A stretch of 64,000 nucleotides of DNA from Pseudomonadota bacterium (GTDB lineage Bacteria; Pseudomonadota; Gammaproteobacteria; Burkholderiales; Burkholderiaceae_C), in the NCBI GenBank assembly GCA_021819435.1, contig JAKARB010000009.1, forward strand, positions 1 to 64,000. The letters run 5' to 3'. Of the stretch, positions 51,104 through 62,983 are shown one piece after another (within the stretch, counting starts at the first letter, position 1; each line of letters begins with the position of its first letter). Below the pieces are notes generated by a model. The model had not been told where the DNA came from and made no database searches. It saw only the letters and a list, made by a program, of their open reading frames with translations. Position numbers and translations under genes: made by a program.

Positions 51104-51817
51104 TCAGGCCTGCCCAGCGGCCAACCGCTGCCGCGCCTGATACAGCATGTCGAGGGTGATGTGCCGCACCTCGAGTTTGCTCTGCTCGACGTGAGCGCGC
51201 AGCAGGCGCTGCGCTTCATCGGTTCGCCGCCGGGTGATCGCGCGAACGATGCGGGCGTGTTCGTCGTAGGTGGCGTCAATGCGCGCGGGCTTGATGAAGT
51301 CCAGGCGGCGGATGATGCGGATGCGCTCGGTGATGTCAGCGTGCACGCGCGTCATCTCGCTGTTGCCAATGGCCCGCACGAGCGTGGCGTGGAACTCCTC
51401 GTCCATCTGCCCCACTGGCAGCGGGTGATTCACCCGGTCTTCGGCCGGGATCAGCCATGACTCAGCCAGCTCTCGCAGGGCAGGTCGTTCCTCGGCTTCG
51501 CACAACCGGGCCACGGCATGGTTCTCGATCAACATCCGCAGGTCATAGAGCTGATCGAAGGCCTCGAAGTTCAGGGGCGCGACCTGCCAGCCACTTTTGG
51601 GGAAGACGAGCAGGAAGCCCTCGCGCTGCAAGCGTTGCAAGGCTTGGCGCAAGGGGGTGCGGCTGACCTGCACGCGCTGGGTGAGTTCGGCCTCCGAGAA
51701 ACGGTCACCCGGCAGCAAATGGAAGTCGAAGATCAGCTGCTTGATCTGGGCGTAGGCACGCTCGGCGAGCGTGGCGGCAGGCAGATCGGTGGGAGGAGGA
51801 ACCGAAACCAGGGTCAT
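51104..51817 (-). CDS. GntR-family (FCD subfamily) transcriptional regulator
   Basis: 237 residues from MTLVSVPPPTDLPAATLAER; the in-frame ATG 20 codons earlier overlaps the preceding gene. The N-terminal winged helix reads DRFSEAELTQRVQVSRTPLRQALQRLQREGFL, followed by an all-helical FCD domain with metal/ligand residues (DLRMLIENHAVARLCE, DEEFHATLVRAIGN, YDEHARIVRAI). It is the last gene of the twelve-gene nitrogen-compound cluster and is its likely repressor. Candidate operator repeats lie at 62959-62983, in front of the first gene. Confidence 0.92.
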   Translation of the reverse strand: MTLVSVPPPTDLPAATLAERAYAQIKQLIFDFHLLPGDRFSEAELTQRVQVSRTPLRQALQRLQREGFLLVFPKSGWQVAPLNFEAFDQLYDLRMLIENHAVARLCEAEERPALRELAESWLIPAEDRVNHPLPVGQMDEEFHATLVRAIGNSEMTRVHADITERIRIIRRLDFIKPARIDATYDEHARIVRAITRRRTDEAQRLLRAHVEQSKLEVRHITLDMLYQARQRLAAGQA

Positions 51818-51839
51818 GGCGTTACAGAGCGGCGCGACA

Positions 51840-52265
51840 TCAACGCGGAGGGGAGCCAGGTGGCGCGCCCGCGTCAAGGGGCACCATGCTCACGTGAGCA
51901 GACACGATTTTCCACCCCGTCGGCATGCGCACCCAGGTCTGGGTCTGGAAACCATGCAAGGGGGTATCACTGCGCCGGAACTCGCACATGGCGACCGCCA
52001 TGTCGGTACCGAAGGTGGTGATGCGCACATCGTGCAGCGCACGGGTGAAATCGGGCGACGGCACGCTGGCTCGGTAGGCCATCAGGGCAGCGTGGCCCTT
52101 TTGCGTGTCGGCGATGCCGTAGCGGGTGACGGCGTCGTGCTGCCAGAAGTAGCCGTTGAGCGCGTTCGCGTCATTGCTCATGAGCGCGGCTTCGTAATCG
52201 AGAAAAAGCGCGGTCAGCTCGGCGACGACTTCGGGGCGGTTGACCTGATCAGGCGGCAGGGTCAT
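51840..52265 (-). CDS. hpxZ: HpxZ/AtzH-like protein (DUF3225, SnoaL-type fold)
   Basis: 141 residues. NRPEVVAELTALFLDYEAALMSNDANALNGYFWQHDAV and RYGIADTQKGHAALMAYR are the pattern of HpxZ of oxalurate catabolism and AtzH of the cyanurate pathway, small cone-shaped (NTF2-like) proteins of the same family. Their biochemical role is to assist amidase-type steps on ureido compounds. Here no HpxX/AtzG or HpxY/AtzE amidase is adjacent, so the partner is missing from the window. It lies between the amide hydrolase and gntR with gaps of 15 and 22 bases. Confidence 0.85.
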   Translation of the reverse strand: MTLPPDQVNRPEVVAELTALFLDYEAALMSNDANALNGYFWQHDAVTRYGIADTQKGHAALMAYRASVPSPDFTRALHDVRITTFGTDMAVAMCEFRRSDTPLHGFQTQTWVRMPTGWKIVSAHVSMVPLDAGAPPGSPPR

Positions 52266-52280
52266 GCAAGCAATCTTTCA

Positions 52281-52973
52281 TCAACATGAGGCTGTGGCTG
52301 GAACAGGTGCCAGCAGCGGCAGCAACGCAGAGCTGGGTGCCGTCCAACCCACGATGCCGCCTTGCGCTCGGATCATCGCCAGCGTGGCGGCCTTGAAATC
52401 GGGGAAGTAGCTCTCGGTGCCATCCTCCACCAGCAGGCAGTCGTAGCCGCGGTCGTTGGCCTCGCGCATGGTGGTCTGCACACACACCTCGGTGGTCACG
52501 CCCATGATGATCAAGTGGGTGATGCCACGCGCCTGCAGCAACTCCTGAAGGTGGGTGTGGTGGAAGGAGCCTTTGCCAGGCTTGTCGATGACGGGCTCGC
52601 CGGGCAGCGGCGCCAGCTCGGGGATGATGCCGTGGCCCGGTTCACCCTGGATGAGGATGCGGCCCATGGGGCCCATGTCGCCGATGCGCAGGCTGGGCGA
52701 GCCGCGCAGGCGCTTGGCCGGCGGGCAGTCAGACAGGTCGGGCGCGTGGCCTTCGCGGGTGTGGATGACGAGCCCCCCCACGGCGCGCCAGGCGTCCATC
52801 ACGCTGCGCACGGTGGGGATGATGGCGCGCAGGAGGTTCACGTCGTTGCCCAGCGAAGCGCCGAAACCGCCGGGTTCAACGAAGTCGCGCTGCATGTCGA
52901 TGACGATGAGCGCGGTGTGGGCGACATCGAACTCGAATTCGAAGGGCTGGGCCTGGATGGTGAGGGTGCTCAT
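52281..52973 (-). CDS. Isochorismatase-fold cysteine amidohydrolase (copy A)
   Basis: 230 residues. The catalytic triad of the family is readable as D26 (IVIDMQRDF), K134 ([10 protein letters not shown]) and C164 ([17 protein letters not shown]). The overall pattern is that of biuret and related ureido amidohydrolases, including [15 protein letters not shown] and [28 protein letters not shown]. It differs from copy B in the substrate-proximal segments ([14 protein letters not shown] for [13 protein letters not shown]). It could therefore act on a related but distinct substrate such as triuret or another N-carbamoyl amide. It follows the BMP-type ATPase gene by 8 bases. Confidence 0.88.
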
Positions 52974-52981
52974 GCGGCCTC

Positions 52982-54592
52982 CTAGTGTGTGCCGTGCTCG
53001 GGCGAGCCATGGTGGTGGCCGCCCATGAAGCTGCCCAGCACGTGGCGGTCGGCGTCGCGAGCGTCGCAGCCGTGCACGACTTGGCCTTCGCTCATCACGA
53101 CGATGCGGTCGGCGAGCTTGAGCAGCTCATCGAGGTCTTCGCTGATGAGCAGCACGGCGCCACCGGCGTTGCGCACGGCCATGATGCGGGCGTGGATCTC
53201 GGCCACGGCGGCGAAATCGAGGCCGAAGACGGGGTTGGCCACGAGCAGCACGTCGACCCGACCATCGAGCTCGCGAGCGAGCACGGCGCGCTGCACGTTG
53301 CCGCCGGATAGCGAGCGGATGGGGGCGTTCTCGCCCTGGGTCTTGATGCCGTAGGTGGCGATGAGTTCACGCGCCTGCTGACGCAGCACGCCACCGCGCA
53401 GCCAGCCGCCGCGCGCGGCCGGAGCCTGGTCGAAGCGGCGTAGGCCGATGTTCATGGCCACGCTGAGGTCGCCCACGCTGGCGTTGCGCAAGGGCTCTTC
53501 GGGCAGGCTGCGCACGTTCAGGCGCTGGTTCTGAGCGCGGGTGGCGCGGTAGGCCTCGCCCGCCACGAAGACCTGACCACCGGCGCGATCGCGCTGGCCG
53601 ACCAGGGCTTCCATCAACTCGCGCTGGCCGTTGCCCGAGACGCCCGCCACGCCGACGATCTCGCCGGACTTCACGCTCAGGCTGAAGTCGCGCACAGCGC
53701 GTTCGCCCCGATCGCCATCGACGCTGAGCGCATCGATGCGCAGGCGTTCGGCGGCATCGGCCGGTTGCGGCGTGCGTTCGAGTTCCTGGCCGAGCGTGCC
53801 CATGGCGCTGCTGGCGTTGGCCGACTCAGCTTGCCCCATCATCTCCGCGCCCAGCATGCGCGGCGTGGTGTCGGCCACGCGGTGGCTGCCCATGAGCTTG
53901 CCCCGGCGCAGCACGCTGACGTCGTCAGACACCTCCATCACCTCGCGGAACTTGTGAGAGATCATGATGACGCTGACATCGCCGGCATGCGCCCGGTCGC
54001 GCAGGGCGCCGAGCACCTCGTCGGCTTCCTGCGGCGTGAGCACCGAGGTGGGCTCGTCAAGGATCAGCAGGCGGGGCTTGAGGTAGAGCTGCTTGAGGAT
54101 TTCGAGCTTCTGCTTTTCGCCGGCGGAGAGGTCGACCGGGCGGGCATCGAGGTCGAGCCGGAAGGGCGTGGTCGACATGAAGGCTTCGAGTTCGGCGCGC
54201 ACCTGCTTCCAGGGGATGACGGCGGGCAAGGCGCCCTTGGCCAGCAGCAGGTTTTCGGCCACGGTCATGCCGGGCACCACGGTGAAATGCTGGTAGACCA
54301 TGCCGATGCCCAGCTCGCGCGCAACCACGGGTGAGGTGATCGCATGCTCGCGGCCGTCGATGAGCACGGCGCCTTCGTCGGGCAGGTGGTAGCCGACGAT
54401 GGCCTTGACCAGCGTGGACTTGCCCGCGCCGTTCTCGCCGAGCAGGGCGTGCAAGGTGCCAGGGCGCACCTCGATGTCGACGTGATCGAGCGCGGTGAAG
54501 GCGCCGAATCGCTTGGTGAGCTGGTAGGTGCTCAGGGCCAGCGCGCCGGTCTTCGGCTGTGGCTGCAAGGTCGGGTCGAGCGGGGCGGTCAT
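52982..54592 (-). CDS. BMP-type (nucleoside-like) ABC importer ATPase, tandem domains
   Basis: 536 residues with two ABC domains. Domain one is complete: [35 protein letters not shown] and [11 protein letters not shown]. Domain two has a degenerate Walker A ([16 protein letters not shown]), [16 protein letters not shown], and [12 protein letters not shown] for the Walker B region, as is usual in sugar/nucleoside importers of this class. It ends in a His-rich tail ([13 protein letters not shown]). It belongs with the two permeases at 59652-61741 and the BMP binding protein at 61752, although seven genes lie between. It powers import of a nucleobase-like or small N-compound. Confidence 0.92.
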
Positions 54593-54624
54593 GTTGGGGT
54601 CCTGTTCGCTCAGTTCATGGGATG

Positions 54625-55440
54625 TCAGGCCGCCATCTCACGGCGGAAGACTTCGAGCGTGCGTGCTTTCACGCGCACGAATTCGGGGTCGGACATGGTT
54701 TCAGGCACGCGCGGGCGCGGCAGGGTGAAGGGCACGATTTCGGCGATGCGGGTGGGCCGGCGCGTCAGCAGCAGGATTTCGTCGGCGAGGAAGACGGCGT
54801 CTTCGAGGTCGTGCGAGACGATGACCATGGTGGTGCCGGTGGCGAGGTGGGCCTCTTGCAGCTTTTCGCGGATGAAGAGGGTCATCTCGAAGTCGAGCGC
54901 CGAGAAGGGCTCGTCGAGGAACATGACTTCGGGGCGGGGTGCGAGCGCGCGCATGATGCAGACGGTCTGCTGCTGGCCACCCGAGAGCTCATAGGGGTAG
55001 CGGGCGAGGTCGAAGCGGATCTCGAAGAGTTTGATCAGCTCTTCAACGCGGGCCTGCACATCGGCTTCTTTCATGCCATGGCGGCGCAGGGGGTAGGCGA
55101 TGTTGTCGCGGGACGTGATCCAGGGGAACAGGGCGTCGCGGTAGTTCTGGAAGACGTAGCCGATCTTGGTTTCCTTCAGCGTCTTGCCGTCGAACAGGAT
55201 CTCGCCTTTGTCCAGGGGGATGAGGCCGGCGATCATGTTCATCAGCGTGGACTTGCCGCAGCCGTTGGGGCCGAAGATGGAGACGATCTTGCTGCGTGGG
55301 AGGTCGAGGTTGAAGTCGGTGTAGAGCGGTTTGCCGGCGAAGGACTTGCACAGGCCGCGGACGGTGACGTGGGGGCGGGGGTTGGTCGCCTCTTGATGAG
55401 GGGCCATCGGTTCATCTTTCATCAGGACGGCGGCGTTCAT
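54625..55440 (-). CDS. NitT/TauT-type ABC importer ATPase
   Basis: 271 residues, single ABC domain: GPNGCGKSTLMNMIAGLIPL, YELSGGQQQTVCIMRALA, VMFLDEPFSALD and IVSHDLEDAVFLADEI. This is the NitT/TauT/SsuB branch that drives uptake of nitrate, taurine, thiamine-precursor or small organic amides. It is separated from its permease gene by 481 bases of repeat-rich sequence. It has its own ribosome site (AAAGGACC). Confidence 0.92.
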   Translation of the reverse strand: MNAAVLMKDEPMAPHQEATNPRPHVTVRGLCKSFAGKPLYTDFNLDLPRSKIVSIFGPNGCGKSTLMNMIAGLIPLDKGEILFDGKTLKETKIGYVFQNYRDALFPWITSRDNIAYPLRRHGMKEADVQARVEELIKLFEIRFDLARYPYELSGGQQQTVCIMRALAPRPEVMFLDEPFSALDFEMTLFIREKLQEAHLATGTTMVIVSHDLEDAVFLADEILLLTRRPTRIAEIVPFTLPRPRVPETMSDPEFVRVKARTLEVFRREMAA

Positions 55441-55641
55441 GGGGTGGTCCTTTTGAAGGAAGATGTTGGTGGGTTGGAGGTTGCTGTTTGGTTGGAGATT
55501 GCGCGGTGAAACCGAAGCGGGCAGTGGGGTACACGGCTCCGCTCATGTCCTCCGCCCAGGCTGCGCCCGGTCTCCCCCTTTACTTCGCTGCGCCATGCCC
55601 CCCACGGCCCGCTTCTTTCACCGCGCTGGTGGTGGGAAGAA

Positions 55642-55677
55642 GGAGATTGGTTGCGGCGTTTGCCGCAACCAATCTCC
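55642..55677. repeat. Perfect 16-bp hairpin with GTTT loop
   Basis: GGAGATTGGTTGCGGC and GCCGCAACCAATCTCC pair over all 16 bases around a four-base loop. This is one of the strongest stem-loops in the window and lies in the middle of the repeat block. No T-run follows, so it is not an ordinary terminator. Confidence 0.92.
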
Positions 55678-55796
55678 CAGCCTTCGCGAAGCGAAGGCAC
55701 TGCCAGAGCGTCGCGCAACATCGGTGCGTCGGTGGCAGGCGTAGCGAAGTAAAGGAGGAGACCAGGCGCAGCCTGGGCGGAGGAGAGAGCCCCGAC

Positions 55797-55821
55797 ACAA
55801 ACAGTCCAGTGGACTGTTTGT
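55797..55821. repeat. Nearly continuous 25-bp palindrome
   Basis: Arms ACAAACAGTCCA and TGGACTGTTTGT surround a single G. As DNA this is a protein-binding-size operator. As RNA it would need to open for a loop. A further perfect 8-bp hairpin, GCCCGAGG-CCACTG-CCTCGGGC, follows at 55833-55854. Confidence 0.9.
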
Positions 55822-55921
55822 GCGTGGCGAGCGCCCGAGGCCACTGCCTCGGGCATGAGCGGAGCCTGCCACCGACGCGCTGATGCCTGCACAGTGATGG
55901 CATACCTGAGCGCAGCCCCAC

Positions 55922-56701
55922 TCATGCTTTGCCACTCCAATGAACCAACCGCTTCTCAATCAGCAAGAACACCAGGTTGAGCACATAGCCCAGCGCCCCA
56001 GTGATCAAGATCGACGTGTACATGTCCTTCACGTTGAAGACCTGCTGCGCATCGATGATGCGATGCCCCAGCCCCGTCTCCGACCCGATGAACATCTCGG
56101 CCACGATGACGATCACCAACGACATCGACACCCCCGTGCGCAAGCCCACGAAGGTCTGCGCCAGGCTCTCCATGAGCATCACATCCTTGAACACGTGCCA
56201 GCGCGACACGCCCATGATTTGCGCGGCCATCACGCGGGTCTTCTTGGCGTTCATCACACCATAGGCGCTGTTGAACAGCACCAGCAGCACGGCCGCGAAA
56301 GCGGCGATGGCGATCTTGTTGGCGTCGGTGATGCCGAAGATCAGCAAGAACAGCGGGATCAGCGCCGAAGAAGGCGTGGAGCGAAAGAAGTCGATGAGGA
56401 ACTCGACGCTGCGGTAGGCATTGACCGAGCTGCCCAGCATCACCCCCAACGGCACGCCGATGGCCACGGCGATGCCGAAGGCCGAGAGCGTGCGCACCAG
56501 GGTCGACATGAAGTCTTCTCGGATGGCACCACTGACCACCACCTCCCACAGGTGCGCCAGCGTCTCGCCGGGCGGCGGCAGCAGAACGGGCTTGACCCAC
56601 TGCGCAGAGATCACCAGTTGCCAGATGCCGAACAGCAGGAGCGGCCCCATCAAGGGCATCAGCCTGGCGTCGAACAATCGGTCCAGTGGCTTGGGGATCA
56701 T
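55922..56701 (-). CDS. NitT/TauT-type ABC importer permease
   Basis: 259 residues with about six hydrophobic helices and the BPD_transp EAA loop around AQIMGVSRWHVFKDVMLMESL, the contact with the ATPase. LLPPPGETLAHLWEV at the N-terminus is typical of SsuC/TauC-like permeases. It is preceded by the binding-protein gene (26-base gap) and followed by the repeat block before its ATPase. Confidence 0.92.
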   Translation of the reverse strand: MIPKPLDRLFDARLMPLMGPLLLFGIWQLVISAQWVKPVLLPPPGETLAHLWEVVVSGAIREDFMSTLVRTLSAFGIAVAIGVPLGVMLGSSVNAYRSVEFLIDFFRSTPSSALIPLFLLIFGITDANKIAIAAFAAVLLVLFNSAYGVMNAKKTRVMAAQIMGVSRWHVFKDVMLMESLAQTFVGLRTGVSMSLVIVIVAEMFIGSETGLGHRIIDAQQVFNVKDMYTSILITGALGYVLNLVFLLIEKRLVHWSGKA

Positions 56702-56727
56702 GGGGTCTCCGTGCGCGGTGAGCGGCC

Positions 56728-57705
56728 TCAGCCGACGTAGATCAGCGGCTTGACGGGCACCGCGCGCGAAAAAATCTTGCGCTCGGTGAAGATGTCGAAG
56801 AACTTCTGGAAGTAGCCCAAGTCGGAGGCGGTGAACTCGTTGTAGAGCGTGAAGCCCGCCAGCGGCACCTCCTGCACCAGCGAGGGCTCGATGGCCGTGA
56901 AGCCGTCGATGTGCTTGCGCACCTCGGCCGGGTTCTTGCGCACGAAGTCCACGGCCTTCGCGTACGTGGCGATGTACTTCTTCGCATCCGCTGGCCGCTC
57001 TTTCAGGAAGGCGGTCGTGACGCTGGCAGAGCCACCGAACCAGGGCGCATCGGGTGCACCCAGCACGTATTTGCTGATGACGCCGTTCTCCAGCACACGC
57101 GTGAGCCCCTTGAGGCGGCCCGCCGTGCCTGTGGGCTCCAATGTGTAAACAGCATCGAGCTGATCAGCGGCCAGCGCAGGCACGTGTTGGCCGATGGGCA
57201 GCTCGGTGACTTTGGGGTCGACGATGCCGTTCTTCTCCAGGATGATCTTGGCCAGTGTGACGTTCTGGATGCCGGGGCCAGACGCCACGCGCTTGCCCTT
57301 GAGTTCGGCGATCGACTTGATCGGGCTTTCTTTGGGCACCACGAACTGGTCGAGCACCAGCTTGTGGTTGGAAGGGTTGGAGCAGATGATCTTGAACAGG
57401 CCAGGCGAGGTGATCTCGGCCAAGGCCAACACCGCCGAGGCCGTGCCGTTGGCCGAGCCGTGGATGCGCCCGGCGATCATGGCTTCGGCCACCTGCTGCG
57501 CGCTGGCGAACTTCACGCCTTCGACATTCAGGCCCGCCTCTTTGAAGAAGCCGCGCTCCAGCGCGGTGTAAAGCGGCAAGCCCGATGCGATGGGCCAGTA
57601 ACCGATGAGGATCTTGCCGTCCTGCGCATGCGCGGAGGGCAAGCCGGCGCCCAATGCAAGGGCTGCGGCGGAGGTCTGGATGAACTGGCGACGTGAGGTG
57701 CTCAT
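56728..57705 (-). CDS. NitT/TauT-type ABC substrate-binding protein
   Basis: 325 residues. The Tat-like signal is MSTSRRQFIQTSAAALALGA. The mature part (ILIGYWPIASGLPLYTALER, KGKRVASGPGIQNVTLAKII, VTELPIGQHVPALAADQLDA) follows the NMT1/SsuA-like periplasmic binding fold. It would capture the substrate outside the membrane for the permease and ATPase behind it. The substrate is unknown; its position between biuret-hydrolase-like and permease genes suggests a small amide. Confidence 0.9.
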   Translation of the reverse strand: MSTSRRQFIQTSAAALALGAGLPSAHAQDGKILIGYWPIASGLPLYTALERGFFKEAGLNVEGVKFASAQQVAEAMIAGRIHGSANGTASAVLALAEITSPGLFKIICSNPSNHKLVLDQFVVPKESPIKSIAELKGKRVASGPGIQNVTLAKIILEKNGIVDPKVTELPIGQHVPALAADQLDAVYTLEPTGTAGRLKGLTRVLENGVISKYVLGAPDAPWFGGSASVTTAFLKERPADAKKYIATYAKAVDFVRKNPAEVRKHIDGFTAIEPSLVQEVPLAGFTLYNEFTASDLGYFQKFFDIFTERKIFSRAVPVKPLIYVG

Positions 57706-57785
57706 GGGTTCTGCCTTGGAACGACGAAGGAGATCACCGGATGGGACAACGATGGAACGAACAAACAAGCGAGCCGGCCCCGGTC

Positions 57786-58526
57786 TCAGGCAACGCGGCT
57801 GACCGCGACCGACTGAGCCACCGTGGGCCATGCCTGCATCACATGCATCACGGCCTTGGAATCGGTGAAGGCGCCGAACACGCCGCCTTGCATCTTGATC
57901 ATCGAGAAGGCGGCGGCGTGGTTGCCAGGGTCGGTCGCACCGGTGCAATCGGTCAGCATCACGCACTCGAAGCCCCGGTCGTTGGCGTCGCGCATGGTGG
58001 TGTGCACGCACACGTCGGTGGTGATGCCGGTCAGGATCACGTTCTGGATGCCCTTGGTGTGCAGGATCAACTCCAGGTCGGTCGCGTAGAAGGAGCCCTT
58101 GCCGGGTTTGTCGACGATGGGCTCGCCATCGATCGGGTAGAGCTCGGGGATGATGTCCCAGCCCGGCTCGCCGCGCACCAGGATGCGGCCGCACGGCCCC
58201 ATGTCGCCGATGCCGACGCCGTTGGTGCCGATCTGGCGGGAGCGCCAGCGCTTGTTGGCGGGCAGGTCGCTCAGGTCGGGTCGATGACCCTCGCGGGTGT
58301 GGATGACGAGCATGCCGACGCGGCGCGCCTCGGCCAGCAAGGCCTTGATGGGTTCGATGGGCGCGCGCGTGGCGCTGATGTCGTAGCCCATCTTGTCGAC
58401 GTAGCCGCCCTTGCCGCAGAAGTCGGTCTGCATGTCGATGATGATCAGCGCCGTGTTGGCGGGGCGGAAATCGCCGTTGTAGGGCCACTGGTAGGGCTGG
58501 GCGTCGACGTGGGTGAGAGAGCTCAT
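57786..58526 (-). CDS. Biuret hydrolase-like cysteine amidohydrolase (copy B)
   Basis: 246 residues. The triad is D31 (IIIDMQTDF), K143 ([17 protein letters not shown]) and C173 ([17 protein letters not shown]). Landmarks match what I recall of characterised biuret hydrolase (BiuH): [10 protein letters not shown] at the start, [52 protein letters not shown] and [11 protein letters not shown]. It would split biuret to allophanate and ammonia in the cytoplasm. It overlaps the formamidase stop by four bases, so the two are translated together. No allophanate hydrolase is in the window. Confidence 0.88.
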
Positions 58527-59572
58527 GCGGCGTCCTTCAGGTGGGATGGGTGATCGGATGCGGCCAGCAGATTGGGCTCGCTGCCCCTGAACAGCCGGGT
58601 GGGCGGCGCGAAGCCGCAGGCACCGCCGTCGGTGTGGACGACCTCGTCCTCCCAGGGCAGGCGGGCGCGGCCGGCCACCATGTCTTGCATGAAGGTGTAG
58701 GGGCAGTCTTGTGCGCCGCCTTTCACCGCCACGTAGCCCCGGTGGAAGAACTGGTGGATGTTGTTCTCCACGCCCCAGTGCACGCGGGCTTCGCGGACCA
58801 GGTCGGCGCGCACCTCGGCGCACACGATTTCATCGGGGCGGCCACCGCCTTGGGCCATCACGGTGCCATCGAAGTTGCACACCATGGCCTCGCCCATGGA
58901 GTCGAAAGTGCCGTCGCTGCCACACAGGCAGACGCTGGCAGTGACCATCAGGTTTTGGAAGGCATTGGCCTGGTTGGTGATGGACCATGCGTGACGAATG
59001 GGCGCCGTGTAGCCGGCGGTTCGGATCATCAGCTCGGCGCCCTGGTAGGCGCACTCGCGCGCCATCTCGGGGAACATGCCGTCGTGGCAGATGATGAGCG
59101 CGAGCTTCACCCCCTTGGGGCCGGTGATGACGGGGATGCCCATGTTGCCCGGCTCCCAGGGCTCGACCGGCACCCAGGGGTGGTACTTGCGGTAGTAGAG
59201 CTTGAGCTCACCCTGGTCATCGATGATGAGACCGGTGTTGTACGGGTTGCCATGCACGTTCTTCTCCATGATGGAGAAGCAGCCCCAGATCTGGTGCTGC
59301 ACACACGCCGCCTTGAACGCCGCCACCTCGGGGCCATCGAGCGTGACCATGAGCTCATCGGCCGTGCTCATGCTCAAGCCGTGCAGCGAGTACTCGGGAA
59401 ACACCACCAGGTCCATGCCCGGGTAGCTGCGGCGGGCCTTGCCCACCATGTCCACAATGCGCTGGGTCTGCGCGGCCAACTGCGCCGTCGTCTCGACCAC
59501 CGGCAGTTGAAGTTGCACCAGGCCCATCACCATGCCCGAAGGCGTCTTGTTCAGGCCACCGAGTCCACTCAT
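58523..59572 (-). CDS. amiF: Formamidase / aliphatic amidase, nitrilase superfamily
   Basis: 349 residues. The nitrilase triad is E60 ([10 protein letters not shown]), K129 ([14 protein letters not shown]) and C162 ([16 protein letters not shown]). [22 protein letters not shown]-like [14 protein letters not shown] and [21 protein letters not shown] match AmiF formamidases, which make formate and ammonia. A simple-amide substrate is thus likely, although paralogous amidases are hard to tell apart. It is the fourth gene of the cluster in transcription order. Confidence 0.88.
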
Positions 59573-59651
59573 CGTCAGGCTCCTTTCAAGTCCTCACACA
59601 GGCCGGACACCGCCAATCATCAGCAGGCGATGCCACGCAACAAGCACCTCG

Positions 59652-60578
59652 TCAGCGCGACACACCCAGCTCCATCGGCGCGCCTTGCAGCGAACGCTTG
59701 GGGCTGCAGGTCCAGACCAGGATGAGCAAGGTCAGCGCATAAGGCATGGCGTTGAAGAGGTGGTAGCCCCAGCCGATGCCAACCGACTGCAAGGCCGGGC
59801 CCAAGGCGCCCGCGCCCCCAAACAACAAGGCCGCGCCCAGGCAGGCCAGCGGCCGCCAGCGCGCGAAGATGACGAGCGCCACAGCGATCAGGCCCTGTCC
59901 CGACGACAGGCCCTCATTCCAGCTGCCGGGGTAGTACAAAGAAAGCGAAGCCCCACCGATGCCAGCCAGGAAGCCGCCCGCCGTGGTCGCCCAGATGCGC
60001 ACGCCATTGACCGAGTAGCCCAGAGCGCGAGCCGCATCGCTGCTGTCGCCCGCCATGCGCACGATCAGTCCCCAGCGCGTGTTGGCGAAGGCCCAGGCCA
60101 TGAAGGCCGCAAGCGCCACGCCGATGGGGAACAGCGCGTTGATGCGCAGCGCCGCCTGCACCTGCGAGGAATCGCTCCAGGCACCCCACTCCAGCGCCGG
60201 CAGTTGCGCGGCCTGCGGCTGGATCAAGGGCTTGCCCAGGTAAAAGGCCAGCCCCGCGCCCAACAGCATCAAGGCGATGCCAGTGGCGATGTCATTGACC
60301 CGTGGCAGCGAACACAGCAAGCCATGCAGCATGGCCAGCAAGGCCCCCGCGAAGGCCGCCGCCAACACGCCCAGCCAGGCCGATCCCGTGAGGTAACTGC
60401 CCGCGAAGCCCGTCATGGCCGAGAGCACCAGCACGCCCTCCAGCCCCAGGTTGATGCGGCCGGATTTTTCAGTGAGGCACTCGCCCAGGCTCACGAAAAG
60501 GAAGGGCGTACCCACGCGGATCGCGCCGCCCAGCACAGCCAGGGCCACGTCCGCCCACAGATTCGGATCGACGCTCAT
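59652..60578 (-). CDS. BMP-type ABC importer permease 2
   Basis: 308 residues, about eight hydrophobic helices. FVSLGECLTEKSGRINLGLEGVLVL and VNDIATGIALMLLGAGLAFYLG are typical of the second permease of nucleoside/BMP importers (NupQ/YufQ). It overlaps permease 1 by four bases and forms the membrane channel with it. Confidence 0.92.
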   Translation of the reverse strand: MSVDPNLWADVALAVLGGAIRVGTPFLFVSLGECLTEKSGRINLGLEGVLVLSAMTGFAGSYLTGSAWLGVLAAAFAGALLAMLHGLLCSLPRVNDIATGIALMLLGAGLAFYLGKPLIQPQAAQLPALEWGAWSDSSQVQAALRINALFPIGVALAAFMAWAFANTRWGLIVRMAGDSSDAARALGYSVNGVRIWATTAGGFLAGIGGASLSLYYPGSWNEGLSSGQGLIAVALVIFARWRPLACLGAALLFGGAGALGPALQSVGIGWGYHLFNAMPYALTLLILVWTCSPKRSLQGAPMELGVSR

Positions 60579-61741
60579 GCGGCCTCCTTGTTTTGGCGAA
60601 TGGCCCGGATGGCCTCGCGCTGCAAGCGCTGCCGGCTCGTTTCATGCCCTGGCGTGGCGGGTGACATCGCCGCGCGCGCCTGCAACCAGCCGCCCAGGCG
60701 GCCACGCCAAGCCTCGGCCGCCAGGATCAGCACGAAGGCGAAGCCCTGCAACACCAGCACCGATGCATCAGGCAGATCGAGCCGGCGCTGCAACAGGCTG
60801 CCCGCCGCCCCGAAGCCGCCGAACAGCACCGCCACCGGCACGATGGCCCAGGGGTTGTGCCGGGCCACGAAGGACACCAGGATGCCCGTGTAGCCCAGCC
60901 CCACGATGAGCGACGCGTTGGCCGAGGTGTGCACCGCCGCCACCTCGATGCCACCAGCCAGCCCGGCCCCCGCGCCACCCAGCGCACAGGCCGTGATGAT
61001 GAGGCGATGGCTGGGCAGCCCCACCAGCCGCGCCGCCCGCGCGTTGCCGCCCACCACGCGGGTGGCGAAGCCATGCGTGGTGCCATGCAACCACAGCCCT
61101 GCCGCCACACAGGCCACCACGCCGATCACCAGCCCCCAATGCACGTCGTAGCCCGGGATCAGGCCCATCAGCACACTCTCGGGCAGCGGCTGGGTGGATG
61201 GCTTGTTGAGGCTAGACGGGTCGCGCATGGGCCCCTCCACCAGGTGCTTGAACAGACCGATGGCCAGGTAGCTCAGCAGCAACGAACTGATGGTTTCGTT
61301 CACCCCGCGGTATTGGCGCAGGACACCCGCCAGAGCGATCCAGGCCGCGCCGGCCAGCGCCGAGGCCATCAGCACCATCACCGTGCCAGCCATGCCGCCC
61401 GGCACGCCCATCAAGTAGGGCAGGCCCGCGCAAGCAAGGCCGCCCAGCACCAACGCGCCCTCGCCGCCGATCACCATCAGCCCGGCTCGCTGCGGCAAGG
61501 CCACGCACAGCGCGGTCAGCATCAAGGGCGCGGCGCGCTGCAGCGTGTTCTGCCACGAGAAGGCATCGCCGAAGGCACCCTTGAAGAGCAGCACCCACGC
61601 CTCCACCGGCGATGCCCCGCCCAGCCAGACAAAACCACCGAACAGCAGCAGGCTGCCGGCCAGCGCGAGCACGGGCAACAGCACGTTGTCGAACAAGGTG
61701 ACCCAGGGCGATGAGGCGGCAGAGGCCGCGGGTGCAGACAT
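60575..61741 (-). CDS. BMP-type ABC importer permease 1
   Basis: 388 residues from MSAPAASAASSPWVTL; the in-frame ATG ten codons earlier overlaps the upstream gene end. About eight to nine hydrophobic helices with LQRAAPLMLTALCVALPQRAGLMVIGGEGALVLGG and GVNETISSLLLSYLAIGLFKHLVEGP, the pattern of NupP/YufP permeases. Partner of permease 2. Confidence 0.92.
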   Translation of the reverse strand: MSAPAASAASSPWVTLFDNVLLPVLALAGSLLLFGGFVWLGGASPVEAWVLLFKGAFGDAFSWQNTLQRAAPLMLTALCVALPQRAGLMVIGGEGALVLGGLACAGLPYLMGVPGGMAGTVMVLMASALAGAAWIALAGVLRQYRGVNETISSLLLSYLAIGLFKHLVEGPMRDPSSLNKPSTQPLPESVLMGLIPGYDVHWGLVIGVVACVAAGLWLHGTTHGFATRVVGGNARAARLVGLPSHRLIITACALGGAGAGLAGGIEVAAVHTSANASLIVGLGYTGILVSFVARHNPWAIVPVAVLFGGFGAAGSLLQRRLDLPDASVLVLQGFAFVLILAAEAWRGRLGGWLQARAAMSPATPGHETSRQRLQREAIRAIRQNKEAA

Positions 61742-61751
61742 GGTGGTGTCC

Positions 61752-62885
61752 TCAGATCTTGCCGATGACACCTTCGACCAGGTAGTTCATGCCTTCCAAA
61801 GCCACGTCCGTCTGCTTCATGACGGTGCCCTTGGGGATGATGACCTTGCCGGTGTTGTCCTTGAGCTCGCCTTTGAAGATCTCGAACTGGTCCTTCAGCA
61901 TGGCAGCCTTGATGGCATCGGCCTGCTTGCGTGCGCCCTCGGGCACCATGGCGCCATAAGGCGAGGTCTTCACATAGCCTTCCTTCAAGCCACCGCGCAT
62001 GAAGTTGGGATGCGGCTTGCCGGTCTGCGCGGCCTCCAGGATCTGCTTGTAAGGCGTGACCCAGTTCCACTCGGCGCCGGTCAAGTAGGCGTTGGGCGCC
62101 AGCTTGGCCTGCGAGGCGTGGTAGCCGCAGACGAACTTGCCGCGTCGAGCCGCCGTCTCGACGATCACCTTCGGCCCGTCGACGTGCATGGTGAACACAT
62201 CGACACCCTGGTCGGCCAGGCTGTTGGTGGCCTCAGCCTCCTTCACAGGCATCGACCAGTCACCCGTGAAGATGACCGAGCAGGTGATGGCCGGGTTGAC
62301 CGACCTCGCGCCCAGCGTGAAGGCGTTGATGTTGCGCAGCACCTGGGGGATCGGCTTGGCCGCGACGAAGCCAATCTTCTTGGACTTCGTCATGTGGCCG
62401 GCGATCACGCCGTTGAGGTACTGGCACTCGTCGATGTAGCCGAAGAAACTGCCCACGTTCTTGGGGTGCTTGGCCGCGTCCCACAGCCCGCCGCAGTGCG
62501 AGAAGCGCACATCGGGGTTCTTCTTGGCGACTTCGAGGATGTGCGGGTTGAAGTAGCCGAACGAGGTCGGGAACAGCAGCGTGGCGCCGTCCTGCGAGAT
62601 CATGCCCTGCATGGTCTTCTGCACGGCCTGTGTTTCGGGCACGTTCTCCTCGCCAACGATCTTCACGCCGGGCAGGCCCTTGAGGGCCATCGCGGCCTCG
62701 TAATGCGACTGGTTGTAGCCAAAGTCGTCCTTAGGACCGACGTAGATCATGCCGATGGTGATCGGCTTCTGGGCAAGTGCCAGCGGCCCCCAACCACCGA
62801 GGGCCAGGCCAGCGCCGCCGGCCCCCACCCCCTTGATCCAGTCACGACGATTCCAGTTCGAACGATTGCCTTGGCCCACGGTCAT
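61752..62885 (-). CDS. BMP-family ABC substrate-binding protein
   Basis: 377 residues; AAGGAGA precedes the ATG at 62885. The Tat-like signal is NRRDWIKGVGAGGAGLALGG. The mature domain (ITIGMIYVGPKDDFGYNQSH, LLFPTSFGYFNPHILEVAKK, DVFTMHVDGPKVIVETAARRGKF) is of the BMP/PnrA type, which binds nucleosides, bases or related small ring compounds. It is the first gene of the twelve-gene cluster and so likely the most expressed. Confidence 0.92.
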   Translation of the reverse strand: MTVGQGNRSNWNRRDWIKGVGAGGAGLALGGWGPLALAQKPITIGMIYVGPKDDFGYNQSHYEAAMALKGLPGVKIVGEENVPETQAVQKTMQGMISQDGATLLFPTSFGYFNPHILEVAKKNPDVRFSHCGGLWDAAKHPKNVGSFFGYIDECQYLNGVIAGHMTKSKKIGFVAAKPIPQVLRNINAFTLGARSVNPAITCSVIFTGDWSMPVKEAEATNSLADQGVDVFTMHVDGPKVIVETAARRGKFVCGYHASQAKLAPNAYLTGAEWNWVTPYKQILEAAQTGKPHPNFMRGGLKEGYVKTSPYGAMVPEGARKQADAIKAAMLKDQFEIFKGELKDNTGKVIIPKGTVMKQTDVALEGMNYLVEGVIGKI

Positions 62886-62958: not shown

Positions 62959-62983
62959 TTGGTGTACTGACTGGTATACAAGC
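62959..62983. promoter_or_regulatory. Likely GntR operator: two TGGTrTAC repeats
   Basis: TGGTGTAC (62961-62968) and TGGTATAC (62973-62980) are direct repeats 12 bases apart, within a loose dyad CTTGGTGTAC...GTATACAAG. FCD-type GntR proteins such as NanR bind repeated GGTATA, which these resemble. An outer perfect 8-bp inverted repeat, AGGCACGC (62941-62948) and GCGTGCCT (62990-62997), encloses the site. It is 74 bases upstream of the first cluster gene. Confidence 0.6.

Follow-up and report, generated by a model that had tools for sequence, protein, structure and literature searches.

What compound is taken up and broken down by the products of a twelve-gene cluster that couples two ABC importers to three amide hydrolases, and how can its pathway be complete when enzymes expected of it are not encoded nearby? 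This question is raised by positions 51104 to 62885 of a 64,000-nucleotide stretch of DNA (the window: positions 1 to 64,000 of contig JAKARB010000009.1, assembly GCA_021819435.1) from a freshwater Pseudomonadota bacterium of the Burkholderiaceae_C. Judging from its gene sequences, this is very probably a triuret/biuret nitrogen-acquisition cluster of a known kind. The earlier note on this DNA, made from the letters alone, had proposed that a small poly-urea compound is imported and then deaminated step by step; this was right, and the signatures of TrtA and BiuH now narrow it to triuret and then biuret. Triuret and biuret reach soils with urea fertilizer, and uric acid oxidation also yields triuret (PMC7948467).

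The two isochorismatase-fold enzymes of the cluster are predicted to be TrtA and BiuH, and since one carries the TrtA signature and the other the BiuH signature, their substrates would be triuret and then biuret. Indeed, the best match of the hydrolase encoded at 52281-52973 is the crystallised triuret hydrolase 6xix (312 bits) and that of the hydrolase encoded at 57786-58526 is BiuH (384 bits). The residues that separate TrtA from BiuH have been listed for the crystallised Herbaspirillum TrtA (PMC7948467). The TrtA of the window keeps the triad D24/K129/C162 together with F35, N41, E160, Y187, Q202 and I205; its sole departure from the TrtA signature is a serine at position 134, as in the BiuH consensus, and the A134S change in TrtA was reported not to be deleterious (PMC7948467). 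The BiuH of the window has the residue of the crystallised BiuH at all 14 positions compared, including Tyr, Tyr53, D173, Thr, Q215 and V218. Among the TrtA-class sequences of the loci described below, the 13-position TrtA signature is kept in 180 of 181 (duplicates counted). The lone exception (L046, 9403-10086; K132Y and Q202E) is a different paralogue of the TrtA/BiuH class, located near urea carboxylase and AtzF genes in a same-genus genome without TrtA.

The predicted steps are as follows. The BMP importer, which belongs to the core of the cluster, would import ureides or related purine breakdown products. TrtA would convert triuret into 1-carboxybiuret and ammonia; TrtB, predicted to be the AtzH-family protein adjoining TrtA, would speed the loss of CO2 from carboxybiuret to give biuret; BiuH would convert biuret into allophanate and ammonia; and the single AtzF of the genome, encoded beside urea carboxylase on another contig, would convert allophanate into ammonia and CO2. 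The formamidase and the NitT/TauT importer would be accessory functions, perhaps extending the diet to formamide or another small amide, and the GntR protein probably regulates the cluster via the sequence TTGTATACCA upstream of the first gene. The literature on relatives covers the chemistry of TrtA, BiuH and AtzF and a carboxybiuret decarboxylase named TrtB; for this genome, we infer each assignment, the identity of TrtB with the AtzH-family protein, the sharing of AtzF, the substrates of the importers and the operator.

A different reading would make another ureide or amide (formamide, formylurea or an oxidised purine product) the true substrate, triuret and biuret being side substrates or intermediates and the diet being defined by the importers and the formamidase. 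In its favour, TrtA is weakly active on formylurea (Table 2 of PMC7948467), the closest solved protein to the BMP binding protein of the window is AtzT (6pi5, 223 bits), which bound the purine guanine (PMC6834077), and a formamidase gene is present in 47 of 93 loci with both TrtA and BiuH. However, published TrtA prefers triuret more than 300-fold over every other tested substrate (the same Table 2), the specificity residues of TrtA and BiuH are kept in the window, and 46 of the 93 loci have no formamidase. We regard this reading as improbable.

The surveyed loci place the BMP importer at the core of the cluster. In draws from the family and order of the window, 114 of 399 genomes matched at an E value of 1e-40, BiuH included, and 50 of 399 at 1e-75; the cluster recurs across both ranks. 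From 165 loci (window included), 10 duplicates and the L046 paralogue were removed, which gave 154 unique TrtA loci. Once the 38 that extend less than 6 kb to one side had been excluded, 116 remained, and 93 of these carry BiuH at at least 60% identity. The best 80 matches were kept and the named loci are mostly Burkholderiales, the frequencies not being representative of bacteria at large. Within the 93 loci, the four BMP gene types are present in 93, an AtzH-family gene in 78, GntR in 75, AtzE in 48, the NitT importer in 46, AtzF in 43, and a cupin and AtzD in 4 each (the last two counted with single Rhizobium queries, that Rhizobium locus included). The formamidase and the NitT/TauT importer are accessories, each found in about half of the clusters. 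Since none of the 93 loci lacks any of the four BMP gene types, the co-location is not due to chance, and the rare co-occurrence that would have spoken against the earlier note is not what was found: the core genes are widely together. All 12 gene types of the window are found in five of the 93 loci, namely the window itself, L044, L084 (A. parvum B6), L093 and L119, the last two carrying AtzF in addition. Four ways of handling carboxybiuret are seen among the loci: AtzE with AtzH, the AtzH family alone, a cupin, or none of these.

Which gene is TrtB is suggested by the relatives of the crystallised enzyme. One genus encodes a TrtA 92-98% identical to the crystallised Herbaspirillum TrtA and, its name being taken from that identity, is very likely Herbaspirillum. 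All five of its loci have the order AtzF-NitSMA-BMP-BiuH-BMPa-TrtA-AtzH family-GntR, with neither an AtzE nor a cupin match in any of the five. Because an AtzH-family gene directly follows trtA in these five loci, without AtzE or cupin, the AtzH-family gene after trtA is the most likely candidate for TrtB. AtzH itself has been assigned to the decarboxylation of the 1,3-dicarboxyurea made by AtzE (PMC6219798). The window gave no tblastn match to this expected partner, AtzE, in a search that did not extend to AtzG. The biuret route does not require AtzE, because an AtzH-family gene stands without AtzE in 33 of the 93 loci (in one, L099, that gene is cut by the contig end) as well as in the five loci of the TrtA genus. 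An AtzE hidden elsewhere in the genome was considered and rejected: four amidases were found by the AtzF search (AtzF itself, GatA and two others), none of them over the AtzE cut-off, AtzE itself not being used as a genome query. An AMO screen of 46 TrtA genomes, aimed at naming TrtB, had two positives and settled nothing; one positive locus (L178) has AtzE and AtzH, and the other positive genome (G548) has 7% contamination.

The lack of AtzF and of AtzE/HpxY in the window had been taken as a sign of a new variant pathway. Both are absent from it, as tblastn gave no match for either, but AtzF is encoded elsewhere in the genome and AtzE is dispensable on the biuret route; a new pathway for want of AtzF was rejected. 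Indeed, the genome encodes one AtzF over the cut-off (contig C19; 791 bits, cut-off 511), adjoining a urea carboxylase (1879 bits), two urea amidolyase associated proteins and a cytosine deaminase. Each of six genomes of the genus of the window has exactly one AtzF (E value of 1e-100 or lower) and one urea carboxylase (1e-200 or lower), and the two genes are adjacent in five of them (the genome of the window, G368, G241, G309 and G033), G309 and G033 being without TrtA. In the sixth, G159, the sole AtzF gene is part of the triuret cluster, where it stands between trtA and trtB (L045), about 1.4 Mb from urea carboxylase. The AtzF of C19 and that of G159 are 49% identical, which argues for the loss of one of two distinct genes and not for a move. 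No in-cluster AtzF is found in the loci of the window, where the trtA-trtB gap is 15 bp, of G368, of G241 and of A. parvum B6. Because the Aquabacterium loci L085 and L086 also keep AtzF after trtA, it looks as if the in-cluster AtzF was lost in the species group of the window. A single AtzF seems to serve both the urea and the triuret pathways in this genus, and its absence from a window is then no proof of a missing pathway step.

Allophanate formed from biuret might instead decay to urea, which would be used by urea carboxylase or urease and bypass the AtzF of the urea operon. Such decay has been stated for the Rhizobium pathway (PMC6219798) and a urea carboxylase is present in the genome; however, urea carboxylase remakes allophanate, so that AtzF would be needed anyway, and six of six genomes have one AtzF each. 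There is little probability that this bypass operates, and the sharing of one AtzF by the two pathways is preferred.

Several points weigh against the triuret/biuret reading as a whole. Besides the guanine bound by AtzT, the formamidase has no step in the triuret route. The identification of TrtB with the AtzH family comes from synteny, the literature passages covered on TrtB naming no protein family for it. For the sharing of AtzF, the basis is the number of genes per genome in six genomes, four of them with TrtA. In Rhizobium L164 (10656-11009) and in L118, L148 and L152, a cupin gene directly follows trtA where Burkholderiales often have an AtzH-family gene; it possibly encodes an unrelated carboxybiuret decarboxylase. 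As a universal TrtB, the cupin was rejected, being found in 4 of the 93 loci with the single Rhizobium query and giving no match in the five loci of the TrtA genus. Carboxybiuret decays spontaneously, its half-life being about 20 min (PMC7948467), and in 8 of the 93 loci none of the three gene types (AtzE, AtzH family and cupin) lies nearby, which argues that a dedicated carboxybiuret enzyme is dispensable.

This decay and these eight loci would also suit a reading in which the AtzH-family protein is no carboxybiuret decarboxylase and is either a dicarboxyurea decarboxylase like AtzH or a leftover. The protein of the window does pass the HpxZ model (139 bits, cut-off 135) and keeps the equivalents of Tyr22 and Arg46. 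Against this, neither the window nor the amidases tested include an AtzE that would make dicarboxyurea, the AtzH family is kept without AtzE in the 33 loci counted above, and position 66 of the protein, a valine, is unlike that of all 92 AtzE-linked members described below. This reading is rather unlikely, and the protein is kept as the TrtB candidate.

Position 66 is a candidate marker of dicarboxyurea (arginine) versus carboxybiuret (any other residue) as substrate in the AtzH family. In the TrtA loci, identical proteins being counted once and short or interrupted ones dropped, Arg66 is found in 62 of 62 AtzH-family proteins with AtzE nearby and in none of the 36 that lack AtzE in loci extending 2 kb or more to either side. 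Another three members, located at contig ends, have V, T and R at this position. Only this alignment position separates the two groups perfectly, followed by positions 71 (0.96), 53 (0.94), 49 (0.93) and 72 (0.91). A second draw, in which 398 genomes of the phylum were searched for the AtzH family, added 40 loci; over both draws, Arg66 accompanies AtzE in 92 of 92 members, and members without AtzE comprise 38 non-Arg and 8 Arg. Within loci that match BiuH, Arg66 is present in 54 of 54 members with AtzE (four of these loci, L070, L077, L079 and L081, carry just a divergent BiuH-like gene) and a non-Arg residue in 37 of 37 without it. Seven of ten more loci hold an AtzH-family gene, and all seven agree with the pattern. 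We tentatively propose, at somewhat less than even probability, that there are two AtzH-family decarboxylases, one with Arg66 acting on dicarboxyurea with AtzE and one with Val, Thr, Ser, Leu, Cys, Gly, Gln or Ala at this position acting on carboxybiuret and feeding BiuH, that the switch between them arose several times, and that in the genus of the window the triuret and urea operons share a single AtzF kept in either operon. If so, gene context and one residue would predict the direction of carboxybiuret flow. Should the substrate be determined or marked by position 66, the members that one model annotates as "oxalurate catabolism protein HpxZ" might be assigned to two different pathways. 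The pattern was not found in the literature passages on AtzH/DUF3225 that were covered, most subscription papers lying outside this coverage.

The marker meets with several difficulties. A general rule that no AtzE means no Arg66 was rejected: 8 of 46 members without AtzE keep Arg66, all in loci without BiuH, and four of the eight have weak amidase matches below the limit used. In L235 (739-4656), an Arg66 AtzH-family gene is found without AtzE or BiuH, with a TrtA relative nearby and AtzF on the other strand; the rule is thus broken for TrtA loci at large. The best tree was built from a short alignment from which column 66 and the columns on either side had been left out; it shows five changes of Arg66, among them those in the AtzE-less Variovorax loci L114, L116 and L140 together with L076 (Leu in this group) and, elsewhere on the tree, in L071 (Gln). 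Only two independent contrasts lie on well-supported branches, too few for significance; both agree within BiuH loci, and over all loci a mean of 1.4 of 2 agree and 0 oppose. Furthermore, the published variants include Arg66 to Ala and to Lys, and neither belongs to the five reported as impaired (PMC6219798), which argues against a simple mechanism: position 66 need not be required for dicarboxyurea turnover and may serve to keep carboxybiuret out, to adjust substrate preference or to contact a partner.

Of the 23 TrtA loci without BiuH, 10 have AtzE and an AtzH-family gene; this fits a triuret route that bypasses biuret. A second TrtA arrangement (L070, L077, L079 and L081) has AtzE and AtzH, a BMP importer that is only distantly related (about 25-39% identity) and, on the opposite strand, a divergent BiuH/RutB-like hydrolase.

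Comparison with known systems indicates a conserved cluster that is largely known, its apparently new elements being a lineage-specific loss of the in-cluster AtzF and a testable residue marker in the AtzH family. By TrtA identity to named relatives, the window lies near or in Aquabacterium; its TrtA is 89% identical to that of A. parvum B6 and 93% to that of a Burkholderiales metagenome-assembled genome, both of which have the same 12 genes in the identical order. The hydrolases are the same as those of the Herbaspirillum triuret cluster (TrtA, BiuH and AtzF; PMC7948467), and the five very likely Herbaspirillum loci share both importers, the AtzH-family gene after trtA and the GntR gene; in contrast, the window has a formamidase, has no AtzF of its own and has the NitT genes between biuH and the BMP ATPase gene. 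The same TrtA-BiuH-BMP association, with a putative trtB, has been reported in floodplain ammonia oxidisers (trtA, trtB, biuH, atzF, bmpA-nupABC; PMC12625717), compared with which the window adds the formamidase and the NitT importer and is without a local atzF; the string "formamid" was not found in the main text of that paper. In Rhizobium leguminosarum pRLN5 (L164), the BMP importer, formamidase, BiuH, BMP ATPase and TrtA are ordered as in the window, but AtzD lies between BiuH and the BMP ATPase, a cupin follows TrtA and there is no AtzH-family match. The atzDGEHF genes of Pseudomonas sp. ADP (PMC6219798) have the AtzH family and allophanate chemistry in common with the window, whereas biuret would be an intermediate in the window and is a dead end there. 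A tblastn search of the window gave no AtzD match; in the five TrtA-genus genomes the AtzD search gave no match and none in its control either, and is uninformative.

Relatives are also carried on plasmids. The Enterobacter hormaechei IncR plasmid NZ_CP058178.1 (L166, 1799-11422), which is mobilizable, carries a cluster of the order AtzF-BMP-formamidase-BiuH-BMPa-TrtA-GntR, which lies between IS1 transposase genes and gave no AtzH-family match. Plasmid matches include 77 from Escherichia and 13 from Klebsiella among 245 records. In the one Escherichia context read, that of Escherichia coli plasmid NZ_CP041299.1 (L165, 10001-17211), a TrtA relative of about 61% identity with the full TrtA signature neighbours genes for DUF2877, FdrA, DUF1116, carbamate kinase and a cytosine permease, a set that could be a phosphorolytic, ATP-yielding route for a triuret product.

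The layout of the cluster is given in Table 1. The twelve open reading frames are intact and all on the minus strand, running from 62885 to 51104, with gaps of, in order, 10, -4, 79, -4, 80, 26, 481, 32, 8, 15 and 22 bp (BiuH start at the ATG 58526). The co-directional genes with short gaps that the earlier note described stand but for one gap: the spacing is at most 80 bp, or a 4-bp overlap, throughout, except that the genes for the NitT permease and the NitT ATPase are 481 bp apart. The gene families it had named (two importers, two isochorismatase-fold hydrolases, a formamidase-like enzyme, an HpxZ/AtzH-like protein and a GntR regulator) are borne out by Pfam and NCBIfam.

Table 1. Genes and other features of the predicted triuret/biuret cluster, in order of transcription for the genes.
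Feature	Position	Strand	Basis
BMP-family (PnrA-like) substrate-binding protein, first gene of the cluster	61752..62885	-	Pfam Bmp, 143 bits
BMP importer permease 1	60575..61741	-	Pfam BPD_transp_2, 89.5 bits; ATG start
BMP importer permease 2	59652..60578	-	Pfam BPD_transp_2, 113 bits
Formamidase-like nitrilase-superfamily enzyme (AmiF), accessory	58523..59572	-	NCBIfam formamidase, 554 bits (cut-off 406); Pfam CN_hydrolase
BiuH, predicted biuret hydrolase	57786..58526	-	NCBIfam BiuH, 411 bits (cut-off 370); 6azo, 384 bits; Isochorismatase domain
NitT/TauT-type substrate-binding protein, accessory importer	56728..57705	-	Pfam NMT1, 61 bits (scanned from 57711); ATG at 57705
NitT/TauT-type permease	55922..56701	-	Pfam BPD_transp_1, 66 bits
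NitT/TauT-type ATPase	54625..55440	-	Pfam ABC_tran, 112 bits
BMP importer ATPase, two ABC domains	52982..54592	-	Pfam ABC_tran, 2 stretches, 152 bits
TrtA, predicted triuret hydrolase	52281..52973	-	6xix, 312 bits; Isochorismatase domain
TrtB candidate, AtzH family, predicted 1-carboxybiuret decarboxylase	51840..52265	-	Pfam AtzH-like, 143.5 bits
GntR-FCD regulator, predicted to control the cluster	51104..51817	-	Pfam FCD, 70 bits; GntR, 60 bits
Candidate operator TTGTATACCA	62972..62981	-	about 87 bp upstream of the first gene
Giant intergenic hairpin inside the cluster	55548..55784	-	47-nt arms, 94% complementary

The AmiF of the window passes the curated formamidase cut-off and matches the solved formamidases 5g3o (369 bits) and 2dyu (324 bits). 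A formamidase gene occupies the same cluster position in Rhizobium and on the Enterobacter plasmid; the word formamidase was not found in the literature covered that mentions at least two of biuret hydrolase, triuret and BiuH. The idea that the NitT importer serves as a formamide importer was rejected, no association with the formamidase being seen (both in 12 of 93 loci at a narrower limit). The sequence TTGTATACCA, a candidate site for the GntR protein, occurs upstream of the cluster in 11 of 20 TrtB-clade loci, in 1 of 52 AtzE-type loci and in 1 of 38 other loci.

An Rfam search gave a single sub-threshold match, at chance level. The giant hairpin lies in the 481-bp gap, where the folding energy of a 271-nt stretch is -194.6 kcal/mol (z -15.7). 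This hairpin belongs to a low-copy inverted-repeat family of the genus, with matches in the triuret cluster of four same-genus genomes, even where the NitT genes are absent (G159).

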